DNA of 64,000 bases from Pseudorhodoferax sp. Leaf274 (GTDB lineage Bacteria > Pseudomonadota > Gammaproteobacteria > Burkholderiales > Burkholderiaceae_C). Position numbers and translations under genes: made by a program. Numbering within the stretch: position 1 is the stretch's first letter; every line of letters starts with the position of its first letter. The notes below the pieces were generated by a model. That model made no database searches, had not been told where the DNA came from, and worked only from the letters and a program-made list of their open reading frames with translations. The stretch spans positions 226,932-290,931 of the forward strand of contig NZ_LMNA01000001.1 of assembly GCF_001422445.1 (NCBI RefSeq). Reading direction: 5' to 3'. Shown here in pieces: positions 6,289-28,030 of this stretch.

Positions 6289-7980
6289 CTACGCACCGGC
6301 CGCGTGGCGCCCCGCGATGTAGCCGAAGGTCATCGCCGGGCCCAGGTTGATGCCGCCGGAGGGGTAGCAGCCGCCCAGCACGCTGGCCATGTCGGTGCCC
6401 ACCGCATACAGGCCGCCGATGGGCGCGCCACCGACCCCCAGCACGCGCGCCTGCGCGTCGGTGCGCAGGCCGGCGAAGGTGCCGAAGCTGCCCGGCAACA
6501 CCTTCACGGCGTAGAACGGGCCTTGCGCAATGGGCGCCACGCAAGGGTTGGGGCCGGTGTGCAGCGCATCGCCCATCTTGCGGTTGTAGGGCGTGGAGCC
6601 GCGGCCGAACTCGGGGTCTTCGCCAAGGCGCGCATGCCGGTTGAAGTTCTGCACCGTCTCGGCCAGCGCGGCCGGCGCGATGCCGCAGGCCCGGGCCAGC
6701 GCCTCGATGGTGGCGCCGCGCTGCAGGTAGCCGCTGCGCACGGCCGGGCCCACGGGCAGCGGAAAGGGCCGCGCATGGCCCAGCCCATACAGGCGCTGGA
6801 AGCGGTGGTCGCAGACGAGCCAGGAGCACACCTCTTCGCCCGCAGGCGCCTGCGCCACCATGGCCGCGGTGTAGTCGTGGTAGCCACCGGCCTCGTTGAC
6901 GAAGCGCCGGCCGTTGGACAGCACGCCGATCACCCCCGGCTTGCCGCGGTCGATGATGTGCGGAAAGTGGCCGACCGAACCGTCCGCATGCGGCACGCGC
7001 GAGACCGGCGCCCAGGCCACGGGCGATGCCAGGCCGGTGGCCAGCATGCCGCCGGCCGCCTCGCCCAGGCGGATGCCGTCGCCCGAACAGCTCTCTGGCG
7101 GCAGCGCCAGGTGCTCGTGGCCCGTGGGCGTGCGCGGAAACAGCGCCTGCCGGCGTGCGATGTCGTTCGGAAAGCCGCCGGCCGCCAGCACCACGCCGCG
7201 GCTGGCGCGGATCTCGGTCTCGCCACCGGCCGTGGCGACGACGGCGCCGCGCACCACGCCCCCTTCCACCAGCAGCCGCTGCGCCGGGGCCGAGGCGATC
7301 AGCTGCACGTTCAGGTCCTGCGCCGACTTGGCCAGCCGGCCGACCAGCGCCACGCCGTTGACGAGGTGCATGGCGCGGCCGTGCAGCGCCAGGTCGCGCA
7401 GGTGCCGCACGAAGCGGCCCGCCACGTGCAGGAAGGACTTGGCCGAGCGTGTCATGCCGAGGAAAGCGCCCAGGTCGGCGCCGGCCATGATGGGCATGCC
7501 CAGGAAAGAGGTCTCGCGCATGGTCGGGCGCAGCTGCTTGTTCAGCGCGCCGATCTCGCGTGCGTCGTAAGGCGCGGCGATGAGCTGGTGGCCGCCCGTA
7601 GCCGCGCCGGGCACCTGGCCGTGGATGTCGGGGATGCCGTTGCCGTCCACGAACTGCAGGGCCGTGTGCTGCTCGAAGAACGTCACCATGGCCGGCGCGT
7701 TGTCGAGGAACGCATCCACGCGCGCGGCGTCGTAGTGCGGGCCGAGTTCGTTCTGGAGGTAGGTGCGCGGCTGCTGCGGGTCTTCGTGGATGCCAGCGCG
7801 CTTCGCCAATGGATTGCCCGGCGCCCACATCCAGCCGCCCGACCAGGCCGTGGCGCCGCCGAACACCGGGGCCTTCTCGACCACCACGACCTTCAGGCCG
7901 TGCCAAGCCGCGGTGACGGCAGCAGACAACCCGGAAGCCCCTGAGCCGACGACCAGCAGGTCGCAGTCGATGCGCTTCAT
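6289..7980 (-). CDS. FAD-dependent dehydrogenase (KstD / fumarate reductase fold)
   Basis: A 563-residue flavoprotein. The N-terminal Rossmann motif VVGSGASGLSAA (residues 10-21) and the ribose-binding glutamate in VVVEKAP bind FAD. The C-terminus has the second FAD contact (GLYAVGTDMAS, GGINLGPAMTFGYIAGR), as in 3-ketosteroid delta-dehydrogenases and flavocytochrome c fumarate reductases. There is no signal peptide or heme motif, so it is probably a cytosolic dehydrogenase acting on a ring ketone or enoyl substrate. Its ATG overlaps the stop of the isomerase-like gene by 4 bp, so the two are translationally coupled. The substrate is unknown. Confidence 0.88.
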   Translation of the reverse strand: MKRIDCDLLVVGSGASGLSAAVTAAWHGLKVVVVEKAPVFGGATAWSGGWMWAPGNPLAKRAGIHEDPQQPRTYLQNELGPHYDAARVDAFLDNAPAMVTFFEQHTALQFVDGNGIPDIHGQVPGAATGGHQLIAAPYDAREIGALNKQLRPTMRETSFLGMPIMAGADLGAFLGMTRSAKSFLHVAGRFVRHLRDLALHGRAMHLVNGVALVGRLAKSAQDLNVQLIASAPAQRLLVEGGVVRGAVVATAGGETEIRASRGVVLAAGGFPNDIARRQALFPRTPTGHEHLALPPESCSGDGIRLGEAAGGMLATGLASPVAWAPVSRVPHADGSVGHFPHIIDRGKPGVIGVLSNGRRFVNEAGGYHDYTAAMVAQAPAGEEVCSWLVCDHRFQRLYGLGHARPFPLPVGPAVRSGYLQRGATIEALARACGIAPAALAETVQNFNRHARLGEDPEFGRGSTPYNRKMGDALHTGPNPCVAPIAQGPFYAVKVLPGSFGTFAGLRTDAQARVLGVGGAPIGGLYAVGTDMASVLGGCYPSGGINLGPAMTFGYIAGRHAAGA

Positions 7981-8792
7981 TCGCCCACCTGCGCCAGCAC
8001 GCGCCGCGTGGCGGCCAGCGCCCGGCGCGCGCGCTCCGTGGCGTCCACGGTGCGCGCCAGCGCCTGCGTCGGCACCTCGATGCTGAGCGGGATGCCGGCC
8101 GGCACGGCGCGCAGCAGCGCCACGAGGTCCAGCGCGCCCTCGCCCGGGAACAGCCGCTCGGCCCGCGCCTGGGCCAGGATCGCATCCATGCTCGGCGGAA
8201 TGGCGGCCGGCACGTCGCAGAACTGCAGGTAGCGCAGCTGTGTGTGCGGCACGCGCGCGATGTCCTCCAGCCGGCTCCGCGAGCGGCTGAAGTGGAAGGG
8301 GTCGATCAGCACGCCCGCGTTGGCGCAGCCACTGCGCGCCACGATGCGCGCGGCGGCGGCCAGGTCCTTCGCATCCGTCCAGGGCATGAACTCCAGCACG
8401 GCGCCCAGGCCGTAGCTGTCGGCCAGCTCGCAGAACGCGGCGAAGGCGGCGATCTGGCGCGCGTCGTCGGGGTCGTTGCCGGCCACCAGCAACTCGCTCG
8501 CGCCCAGCCGCGCCGCGGTGGCGATGGCCGCCTCATAGTCGGCCGCGCGCTTGCCGGGCTGGATGCGGAAGATCTCGGCGTCGAGCACCTTCACGCCGGT
8601 GTCGGCCAGGGCGGCCTCGACCTCGCGCAGGAGCGGCGTGTCGCCCACGATGTCGTACTGTGGCTCGGTGGCGGTCGCAGGGATCAGGCGCATGCCGATG
8701 TGGCTGTAGCCGGCGTCTGCAGCGCAGCGCACCATGGCGGGCGGGGCCAGCTCCAGCACCGTGAGGGCGGCCAGCGAAATCGGGCGGTTCAT
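7977..8792 (-). CDS. Sugar phosphate isomerase/epimerase-like TIM barrel
   Basis: A 271-residue protein of the xylose-isomerase-like / AP-endonuclease-2 fold. Metal-site segments are visible: LDAEIFRI, GAVLEFMPW, NAGVLIDPFHFSRS, LRYLQFCDVP and LSIEVPTQ. Relatives isomerise sugars or hydroxypyruvate, or act on dehydroshikimate. The start at MNRPIS is preferred over a longer reading that would run into the divergent promoter. It is first in a two-gene leftward operon with the FAD dehydrogenase and divergent from the LysR at 8883, its likely regulator. The reaction cannot be assigned. Confidence 0.85.
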   Translation of the reverse strand: MNRPISLAALTVLELAPPAMVRCAADAGYSHIGMRLIPATATEPQYDIVGDTPLLREVEAALADTGVKVLDAEIFRIQPGKRAADYEAAIATAARLGASELLVAGNDPDDARQIAAFAAFCELADSYGLGAVLEFMPWTDAKDLAAAARIVARSGCANAGVLIDPFHFSRSRSRLEDIARVPHTQLRYLQFCDVPAAIPPSMDAILAQARAERLFPGEGALDLVALLRAVPAGIPLSIEVPTQALARTVDATERARRALAATRRVLAQVGE

Positions 8793-25662: not shown

Positions 25663-26679
25663 GTGGAACTGCGGACCCTGCGCTACTTCATCGCCGTGCT
25701 CGAAGCGGGCAGCCTGTCGCGCGCGGCCGGCTCGCTGTATGTGGCCCAGCCCGCGCTGACGGCGCAGATCCGCAAGCTGGAGGAAGAACTCGGCGCGCAG
25801 CTGTTCGAGCGCTCGCACGCGGGCATGGCGCCCACGCCGGCCGGGCTGCAGCTGTACCAGGACGCGCGCCGGCTGCTGTCGGACGCTGCCGCCGTGCGCG
25901 AGCGCGTGCGCAGCCTGCCGCAGGGGCCCGAGGGCTCGGTGACCGTGGCATTGCCCTTCCTGATCGCCTCGCTGCTGATGGGGCCGGTGCTGGCCGGGCT
26001 GAAGGCCACGCACCCGCGCATCCGCGTGTTCGTGCTCGACGACCTGAGCCTCATGGTGCGCAAGGCCATGCTGGACCGGCGCGCCGACATCGGCATCCTG
26101 GTCGACCAGGCCCAGGTCGACGGCCTGCGTTGCCGCCCGTTCGCGCGCGAAGCCATGTACTTCTGCGGCCGCGACCTGCAAGGCACGGTGGCGCCGCTGC
26201 TGCAGCCGGCGCCGGCAGGCGAAGGCCATCCGCGCATCGCCTTCGCGGCGGCGGCGGCGCAGCCGCTGGTGCTGCAGTCGCGCCGCTTCTCGATCCGCCA
26301 GCGCGTGGAGGATGCCGCCAACGCGCAGGAGGTGCCGCTCAACATCGTCCACGAGCACGATTCGGCCCGCGTGATCCGCTCGCTCTACGCCTGCGGCGCG
26401 GGCTTCACGTTCACGCCGGCCTGCGCGCTGCCCGACGCCGGGCGCCAGGCCGCGCCCTGGCTGGTGGCGCGCGTGGTGCAGCCCGAGCTGCAGCGCAGCT
26501 ACAGCCTGGCCACCGCCGCCGACCGGCCGCTGGACGCCGCGGCCAGGGTGGTGGTGCAGGCGATCGAGGCCCATGCGCGCACGCTGATCGCAGGCGGCCG
26601 CTGGGAGGCCGAGTGGCTGGGCGAGGCCGATGCCGTGCCCGCCGGGCACGGTCCGAAGCCCGGGCGCGCCGCCCGCTAG
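25663..26679 (+). CDS. LysR-family transcriptional regulator
   Basis: A 338-residue regulator starting at the GTG at 25663 (reads MELRTLRYFIAVLEAGSLSRAAG). An ATG at 25618 overlapping the previous stop (ATGTGA) could instead give a coupled start with a 15-residue extension. HTH residues are in SLYVAQPALTAQIRKLEEELG, and the effector domain is of the Nac/Cbl-like type (GSVTVALPFLIASLLMGPVL). It is last in the ligase/dehydrogenase/Bug operon and probably regulates it. Its TAG stop shares the four bases CTAG with the stop of the convergent PEP-CTERM gene. Confidence 0.9.
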   Translation: MELRTLRYFIAVLEAGSLSRAAGSLYVAQPALTAQIRKLEEELGAQLFERSHAGMAPTPAGLQLYQDARRLLSDAAAVRERVRSLPQGPEGSVTVALPFLIASLLMGPVLAGLKATHPRIRVFVLDDLSLMVRKAMLDRRADIGILVDQAQVDGLRCRPFAREAMYFCGRDLQGTVAPLLQPAPAGEGHPRIAFAAAAAQPLVLQSRRFSIRQRVEDAANAQEVPLNIVHEHDSARVIRSLYACGAGFTFTPACALPDAGRQAAPWLVARVVQPELQRSYSLATAADRPLDAAARVVVQAIEAHARTLIAGGRWEAEWLGEADAVPAGHGPKPGRAAR

Positions 26680-27857
26680 GCGCCGGCCGTGCCAGCGGCA
26701 GCGGCGCGCGCGCGGCCGGCGCCCGCACGCCGCAGCAGCCCGAGCGACGCCAGCGCCAGCAACGCCAGCGTCGGCGGCTCGGGCACCTCGGCCGGCGGCA
26801 CGTCGTTGGCTGCCAGGTAGAGATCGGCCGCGCCCAGCGCGTCCGTGACCTCCAGGCCCAGCCGGAACTGCCCGCGCTGCCACGCGGCCAGCAGGTCGGA
26901 GAACATGGTGTCCAGGTCCAGCGCCAGCTGCAGCGTCGGCGCGGCGCCGGGATCCTCGTACGCGAACCGCAGCCCGAAGTCCGGGACGATGCCCGCGCTG
27001 CCGGGCGGCAGGGCCACCGGGCCGTTCCCCGCGGTGGCGCCGACCGGCTTCAACTCCACCGTGGCGCCGCTCTCCCGCAGGGCCTGCCGCAGCGCAGCCG
27101 CCTCGGCCGGGCTGGCGTTGGCCAGCAGCACGGATGGCGCGTCGTCCACCAGTTGCTTGGCCTGCGTGAGGCCCAGGCCCGTCAGGTCGCGGACCGCCTT
27201 GATGACGGCGATCTTGTTCGTCCCGGCGCTGGCCAGCACCACGTCGTAGCCCGTCGGCGCGGCGCCCGGCATGGTGACCCCCACGTTCGCGCCGGCCGGG
27301 ACCGAAGGGTCCTGGCGGCTGGTCAGCGTCACGCGGGCACCCACGCTCTCCAATGCCTGCTTGAGCTGCGCGTCGCCATCGGGCGTGGACGCCGTGCGGA
27401 TCACGGTGGGTGCGCGGTCCACCAGGTCCTTGGCCTCGCCGAGGCTGATGCCCAGGGCGTCGGTCAGGGCCTTGATCACCGCGATCTTGCTGGCGCCGGG
27501 GCTCTCCAGCACCACCTCGTGCAGCCGGGTCTCGGACAGCCGCACCAGCGGCCCGCCCGACAGGCTGTCGCGCGCGACCGCGCCGGTGGTGTCCTGCACG
27601 TACAGGCCCGTGATCCTGGCGCCCGGGTCGGCAGTGGTGAACAGCTGCAGCACGGCCTGGTTGCCGCTGCCGCCCTGGTTCAGCGCCGCGCTGAAGCGGC
27701 CCGCAGCTTCGCCCGCGCCGTTGTCCGACACCTTCTGGAACACGATCGGCGCAGCCTGCGCCGCCTGCCACGGCATGGCGGCCAAGAGCCCGCAGCACGC
27801 CGCCCAGGCCACCGCCCGGGCCACCCCGGCAGCACGCATGCACGTTCTTCTGACCAT
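26676..27857 (-). CDS. PEP-CTERM protein with two L7/L12 C-terminal-like domains
   Basis: A 393-residue exported protein. A signal peptide covers about 1-35 (cleavage after AQA), then a beta-type segment (about 36-112, PIVFQKVSDNGAGEAAGRF). Two tandem domains at about 113-178 and 204-270 strongly resemble the C-terminal domain of ribosomal protein L7/L12: SKIAVIKALTDALGISLGEAKDLV and, closer still, NKIAVIKAVRD, TGLGL, AKQLVDDAP. Another beta segment follows (about 290-350). The end is a PEP-CTERM sorting signal (VPEPPTLALLALASLGLLRRAG, then Arg-rich), normally processed by an exosortase. The start has GGAGG six bases upstream of the ATG at 27857. No exosortase is in the window. Function unknown. 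Confidence 0.88.
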   Translation of the reverse strand: MVRRTCMRAAGVARAVAWAACCGLLAAMPWQAAQAAPIVFQKVSDNGAGEAAGRFSAALNQGGSGNQAVLQLFTTADPGARITGLYVQDTTGAVARDSLSGGPLVRLSETRLHEVVLESPGASKIAVIKALTDALGISLGEAKDLVDRAPTVIRTASTPDGDAQLKQALESVGARVTLTSRQDPSVPAGANVGVTMPGAAPTGYDVVLASAGTNKIAVIKAVRDLTGLGLTQAKQLVDDAPSVLLANASPAEAAALRQALRESGATVELKPVGATAGNGPVALPPGSAGIVPDFGLRFAYEDPGAAPTLQLALDLDTMFSDLLAAWQRGQFRLGLEVTDALGAADLYLAANDVPPAEVPEPPTLALLALASLGLLRRAGAGRARAAAAGTAGA

Positions 27858-28030
27858 CGCAAGCCTCCGAGCTTCAGTAGGGAAGCTCCCATGCAGGCGC
27901 GCCCTGCGCCGCACGGGAGACTGGCCGGAGTATGGTGAGACGGTGCGCAGGCAACCATCCCGTGATTGCGGTAGCGGCGCGGCAGGCGACCTACCGCCTT
28001 CGCGCCGCTCGTTCGAAGCCGCTTGTGCTC

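Follow-up and report, generated by a model that had tools for sequence, protein, structure and literature searches.

The gene described here lies within a window of 64,000 nucleotides, which is the whole stretch of DNA that was analysed. Its open reading frame had been proposed by a first-pass annotation made from the letters alone, and its position and its orientation on the minus strand were confirmed (Table 1). From the N terminus, the encoded protein is laid out as an export-signal pattern, an orphan beta-like part, a first L7/L12 C-terminal domain (CTD), designated D1, a linker, a second such domain, designated D2, a further orphan part, and a PEP-CTERM tail. A GGAGG sequence was found upstream of the start codon in 6/6 orthologues. 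A loose-pattern search for a sigma-54 promoter upstream of the six orthologues revealed nothing common to all six.

Table 1. Coordinates, in the window, of the gene, its ribosome-binding site and the parts of the encoded protein
Feature	Position	Strand	Basis
Whole gene, 393 amino acids plus stop	26676..27857	-	ORF list, Pfam, orthologues
GGAGG ribosome-binding site before the ATG at 27857	27864..27868	-	Sequence
Residues 1-35, signal peptide by eye, AxA motif	27753..27857	-	Sequence reading
Residues 36-112, orphan N-terminal part, low-confidence strands	27522..27752	-	Profile searches, model
Residues 113-178, first L7/L12 CTD (D1), PF00542 61.5 bits	27324..27521	-	Pfam, model
Residues 179-203, conserved linker	27249..27323	-	dN/dS, alignment
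Residues 204-270, second L7/L12 CTD (D2), PF00542 87.5 bits	27048..27248	-	Pfam, 1ctf superposition
Residues 271-354, orphan C-terminal part before the tail	26796..27047	-	Profile searches, model
Residues 358-377, PEP-CTERM match (VPEPPT, hydrophobic stretch), then Arg-containing end	26727..26786	-	Pfam, NCBIfam

When the protein was searched against Pfam, the model PF00542 matched it twice, with 139.8 bits against a cut-off of 25.9 (E 3.5e-41). The matched stretches were close to residues 113 to 178 and 204 to 270, for which a tandem pair of L7/L12 CTDs had been claimed in the first-pass annotation. In the genome search, D1 and D2 each exceeded the PF00542 cut-off separately, D2 over profile positions 1 to 67 of 67 and D1 over positions 2 to 66 of 67 (27324 to 27518 in converted coordinates). 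The NCBIfam model of bL12, TIGR00855, scored 125.5 bits against a cut-off of 84.4; its best stretch was confined to profile positions 42 to 125 of 125 and did not take in the N-terminal, uL10-binding dimerisation domain. By sequence, the closest solved chain was the E. coli L7/L12 CTD, 1ctf (E 2.6e-16). Across the whole genome, PF00542 gave three matches, namely the two in this gene and one in a 128-amino-acid frame on contig C4 (107.7 bits), which was taken as the ordinary, normal-sized bL12.

Structures were predicted with AlphaFold2, the model of the whole protein being based on an alignment of six sequences. Both domains were modelled with the order beta-alpha-alpha-beta-alpha-beta and with pLDDT values mostly of 75 to 89 per ten-residue block. 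The whole-protein model had a mean pLDDT of 52.4 and a pTM of 0.29, with most of the protein outside the domains below 50. The model of the tandem alone had a mean pLDDT of 76.2 and a pTM of 0.40, so that the mutual placing of D1 and D2 is not readable from it. For both models, 1ctf superposed on one predicted domain at 0.7 Å, with a TM score to the target of 0.95 and 57% identity; it ranked first in the structure search with one model and third by E value in that with the other. The identity of 57% indicates that the superposed domain was D2, and it is in line with the earlier by-eye estimate that more than half of the positions of the second repeat are identical to E. coli L7/L12. For D1, the evidence for the CTD fold is the predicted secondary structure. 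The claims of the first-pass annotation regarding the domains were therefore upheld by a significant profile match and by the predicted alpha/beta arrangement. As judged from the profiles and the predicted fold, the protein holds two true L7/L12 CTDs.

The N terminus of the protein has an Arg-rich start followed by a hydrophobic stretch and an AxA motif, a signal pattern that was judged by eye. The residues A33 and A35 of this motif were invariant in 6/6 orthologues, as was the EVPEP sequence near the C terminus. The PEP motif, with its hydrophobic stretch and basic end, was clear in the tail, and the scores were borderline, at 20.3 bits against a cut-off of 20.7 in Pfam (whole protein), 15.9 bits against 16 in NCBIfam, and 20.9 bits, above the cut-off, in the genome search. 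Pfam identified L12 in 6/6 orthologues and PEP-CTERM in 4/6 at E up to 0.05. In the Pseudorhodoferax soli orthologue (L064, 7953-9278), the frame continued for about 50 residues past the PEP-CTERM stretch, giving an end unlike that of the other five. An exosortase A gene with an EpsI domain was found in the same genome (356.6 bits versus 208), along with 29 PEP-CTERM matches, 25 of which were over the cut-off, this protein included. The proposal of an exported-looking PEP-CTERM protein built around two CTDs was supported. A second exosortase-like match was observed in this genome (L043, C1:810176-810901; 73.9 bits in Pfam), a stretch that no NCBIfam model matched.

The regions flanking the domains were mostly modelled with pLDDT below 50. 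In NCBIfam and Pfam, the 186 residues that remain without the CTDs matched nothing beyond PEP-CTERM models and a few weak families; the PDB gave one chain (E 0.32). A profile of the orphan part was run against PEP-motif frames from 24 of 26 loci of the same genome, the loci L082 and L083 being left out as they had no such frame, and none of the matches was significant (best E 0.021). In 200 family genomes, the same profile picked up the 3 members of the genus that were in the sample and gave 4 weak matches, of which three lay in the tail and one at positions 40 to 92 (G194, 23.1 bits). NF038129 was considered as a family of the orphan part because of weak matches in 6/6 sequences (best E 0.00018, below the cut-off); it was dropped after a profile comparison with five members aligned the tail only, over 24 columns. 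The full-length search gave two non-bL12 matches outside the genus near E 1e-3. The one in G073 (residues 32 to 104) was rejected as a chance match to a place where a dehydrogenase-like frame on one strand is overlapped by other frames, and the one in G029 covered residues 44 to 160. No convincing relative of the flanks was found outside the genus in the searches made, and from sequence and model they appear to be an orphan region, modelled without confidence. They might be the two halves of one beta-type domain into which the pair of CTDs is inserted, as suggested in the first-pass annotation.

In a search of 149 relatives, full-length orthologues with 64 to 73% identity were found in 5/5 other genomes of the genus, and the matches elsewhere were bL12-like except for the two near E 1e-3. 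Five loci were also found when genome contigs of all phyla were scanned with two short peptide patterns, which were drawn from this family, such that remote relatives could escape. These loci were filed as Pseudorhodoferax soli, P. aquiterrae, Pseudorhodoferax sp. Leaf265 and Leaf267, and Variovorax boronicumulans, and from matching protein lengths and identities they were taken as the same genomes as the five congeners. The whole layout of signal pattern, D1, linker, D2 and EVPEP tail was kept in 6/6 genomes of the genus.

PF00542 was present in 367 of 397 family genomes. Three matches were found in 6/6 genomes of the genus and more than one in 33 other family genomes, as counted by eye. A single match over positions 1 to 67 was found in each of 31 of these 33; in G209 the bL12 was split in two, and G244 had no match over those positions. 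The further matches in the 33 genomes were partial, with at most 40.3 bits, and mostly fell within positions 4 to 46. Sixteen loci from other family genomes (L045-L060) encode small proteins separate from bL12, most of which contain the L12 helix-hairpin motif (of the kind KIEAIKLLRDATGLGLKEAKDAVE) once or twice. Most of these proteins end in a hydrophobic stretch, which in L053, L058 and L059 is placed before the motif instead; L052 differs. A PEP-CTERM tail was not seen in any of the small proteins, which were read from 16 of the 33 genomes, and from their sequences they look like membrane-anchored proteins.

Of 370 genomes of the class, the window's genome was the only one in which a profile of the tandem matched across both domains (among the matches listed, sorted by E value). 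Five other genomes of this sample (G641, G691, G739, G792 and G814) had two matches each, of single-domain strength by best E. Similarly, at E up to 1e-24, no genome but the window's carried the tandem in samples of 399 genomes from the order and 398 from the phylum; the three samples overlap, all lie within the window's phylum, and a limited number of candidates was scored per genome. The same tandem was not found in other Burkholderiales genomes in the samples outside the genus. Matches were obtained in 38 plasmid records, none of them covering 80% of the query; of the five listed, one was annotated rplL and the others had no annotation under the match. Viral contigs gave no match to two patterns. 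In a viral structure library, the top viral matches to the tandem model were phage proteins annotated as bL12 CTD-containing (A0A7M1RYT6); one such protein has 308 amino acids and belongs to the uncultured phage cr126_1. The combination of an L7/L12 CTD with PEP-CTERM was not found in print in the open-licence literature, where the one paper in which L12 and PEP-CTERM both occurred was on Acetobacteraceae metabolites.

A tree was calculated from 46 CTDs (34 bL12 plus D1 and D2) and 69 columns, the bL12 rows being mostly chosen as best matches to the query. It contained a bL12 group (99/97), a D1 group (100/100) and a weak D2 group (69/0). Mean identities were 45% between D1 and D2, 38% between D1 and bL12, 47% between D2 and bL12, and 79% among the bL12 themselves, with 67% among the D1 domains and 69% among the D2 domains. 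These sequence relationships fit a bL12-type CTD that was captured, and duplicated before the sampled species split, with D1 drifting further; we infer the order of capture and duplication. Recent copying from the present bL12 does not fit them.

In the window and in three orthologous loci (L062, L064 and L065), the gene is flanked on one side by an SDR-AraC-acyl-CoA dehydrogenase group and on the other by a LysR-receptor-acyl-CoA dehydrogenase group; approximately 3 kb extra precede LysR in L062 and L061. In L061 (Variovorax boronicumulans DE0202 as filed, 7500-8000), there was no SDR nearby and only a 51-residue AraC match was left directly upstream. None of these neighbours was present within 8 kb on either side of L063, where the frames around the gene resembled, by eye, polyphosphate kinase and lytic transglycosylase. 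Where fully present, the neighbours were 85 to 96% identical, compared with 64 to 73% for the gene. The mean pairwise dN/dS, from a simple method uncorrected for the high G+C, was 0.43 to 0.59 in the signal, flanks, domains and tail. The lowest value, 0.22, was that of linker residues 181 to 201, compared with 0.53 and 0.59 in the domains it joins, all without a control gene. From these comparisons, the gene appears to stand alone, to evolve fast and to be mildly constrained, and the fast evolution may itself reflect weak constraint.

On the ribosome, the L7/L12 CTD catches translation factors. The corresponding face was described from 15 charged positions (E. coli numbering) that are conserved in 90% or more of the 34 bL12 in the set. 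At the factor-face positions 65, 70, 73, 82 and 84, of which 73, 82 and 84 were presumed to belong to this face, the bL12 residue was kept in 44/60 cells, and at the other ten positions in 12/120; since the six sequences are related, the cells are less independent than these counts suggest. On a per-position count, the enrichment of the factor face had a p value of 0.08 for D1 and 0.02 for D2. K70 and K84 were kept in 12/12 domains and K65 in 11/12, the exception being an Arg in one D1. R73 was kept in 0/6 D1 and 4/6 D2 domains, K81 was lost in all 12, and E82 was lost in 7/12. In one study of L7/L12 (PMC10602876), EF-Tu is bound more weakly when K65 or K70 is substituted, Arg at position 65 is a change that weakened binding, and K81 is named as highly conserved. 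K65, K70 and K84 were also present in most of the small L12-like proteins as read by eye, and hence may be a signature of the fold rather than a pattern peculiar to the binding of factors.

Our preferred reading, which is held tentatively, is that the gene encodes a surface or matrix protein, sorted by exosortase, in which the L12 CTD has been put to new use as a two-headed binding module. The identity and conservation of the domains are established, and from the parts around them we infer export, sorting and binding. The protein would leave the cytoplasm by its N-terminal signal, its tail would be handled by the exosortase A of the same genome, and its final place would be the cell surface or the exopolysaccharide matrix. 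By profile and prediction, its recognisable folded part is formed by the two CTDs, which the conserved linker joins. The tree suggests that the CTDs were copied from the ribosomal bL12 CTD, or from a close relative of one, and that D1 and D2 were already distinct when the species sampled from the genus diverged. Off the ribosome, they may have become a two-headed protein-binding module acting through the lysine face of bL12, with some surface or matrix protein as the partner; this is the weakest step. According to a proposal by Haft et al. 2006, PEP-CTERM tails are recognised by EpsH at the inner membrane (PMC1569441). In Aquincola, overexpression of a PEP-CTERM protein reportedly led to more cell-bound polymers and rescued the floc formation of a mutant (PMC9850573). 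A repurposed adhesion or matrix module, as suggested in the first-pass annotation, would fit the published PEP-CTERM work (PMC9850573, PMC1569441).

The CTDs could instead be a stable filler or spacer, kept for the fold and binding nothing, with the lysines persisting by ancestry or structure. The dN/dS of about 0.5 in both domains, not below that of the orphan flanks, speaks for such a spacer, as do the loss of most conserved charges, the variable gene neighbourhood with no constant partner (that of the L063 orthologue being different) and the presence of these lysines, by eye, in most of the small L12-like proteins. Even so, both domains were kept in 6/6 genomes, K70 and K84 were invariant and K65 was present in 11/12 domains despite only 67% (D1) and 69% (D2) identity, and the linker was the most constrained region. 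A mere spacer is possible and is considered rather unlikely. It appears distinctly unlikely that the captured, doubled and exported stalk domain serves as a surface or matrix receptor whose translation-factor face binds a protein outside the cell, possibly translation GTPases that are displayed on surfaces or released; we are not aware of another L12 CTD that works outside the cytoplasm.

EF-Tu is also present on the surfaces of bacteria. Binding of extracellular translation GTPases, such as EF-Tu on surfaces or from lysed cells, would accord with the retention of K65 and K70, the residues whose substitution weakens EF-Tu binding (PMC10602876), but is very unlikely in view of the loss of R73 in D1, of K81 in 12/12 domains and of E82 in 7/12. 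A cytoplasmic protein that competes with bL12, its signal and tail having been misread, would agree with a PEP-CTERM score just under the curated cut-offs and with a signal peptide judged by eye. The AxA motif, EVPEP and the general signal and tail pattern were, however, kept in 6/6 orthologues, and the genome has exosortase A and 25 PEP-CTERM matches, making a cytoplasmic location highly improbable. Overlapping long frames are frequent in this DNA, but a reading frame that is an artefact of the GC-rich genome or of the assembly can be dismissed, with a known domain matched twice and an identical layout in six genomes, the orthologues of which already refute it.

The proposed sorted surface or matrix protein can be compared with several known systems. 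With the bL12 CTD (PF00542/1ctf) it shares nearly all 67 profile positions, the same fold, and K65, K70 and K84; unlike bL12, it has an exported-looking context, two CTDs per chain and no match to the N-terminal part of bL12, while R73 is partly changed and most other conserved charges are changed. The small L12-like proteins of the family resemble it in carrying the L12 helix-hairpin motif once or twice outside bL12, but differ in having only partial PF00542 matches (at most 40.3 bits, mostly positions 4 to 46). ClpS, the N-degron adaptor of the cytosolic Clp protease, has the same general fold and was the next PDB family after L12, with TM scores to the target of 0.53 to 0.73 but identities of 7 to 23% among the listed matches.

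PepA, a flocculation PEP-CTERM protein (NF033554), has a sorting tail of the same kind (PMC9850573). The NF033554 model weakly matched the C-terminal part of the present protein, with E 0.0064, or 0.00064 without the CTDs, but this match was far below the cut-off of 80 bits. To our knowledge, PepA has no L12 domain. More generally, the PEP-CTERM/exosortase A proteins (PF07589, TIGR02595 and TIGR03109) share with it the signal pattern, as judged by eye, the tail of EVPEP, hydrophobic stretch and basic end, and exosortase A. The gene apparently stands alone, as do most PEP-CTERM genes according to Haft et al. 2006 (PMC1569441), where fewer than 10% of PEP-CTERM proteins matched any family then in Pfam. 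Since most PEP-CTERM ectodomains are without known relatives, their ligands are hard to guess. What sets this protein apart is the L7/L12 CTDs in its ectodomain, a combination found nowhere else in the searches made. It is a new architecture built from known parts, seen in one genus only in the samples searched, and its unusual point is a translation-factor-binding domain that has kept part of its face and yet apparently lies outside the cytoplasm. The known structure and binding face of the CTD would make possible a direct test of the ligand of an exosortase-sorted protein, and so far in this one genus, a ribosomal domain has left the ribosome and apparently the cytoplasm as well.
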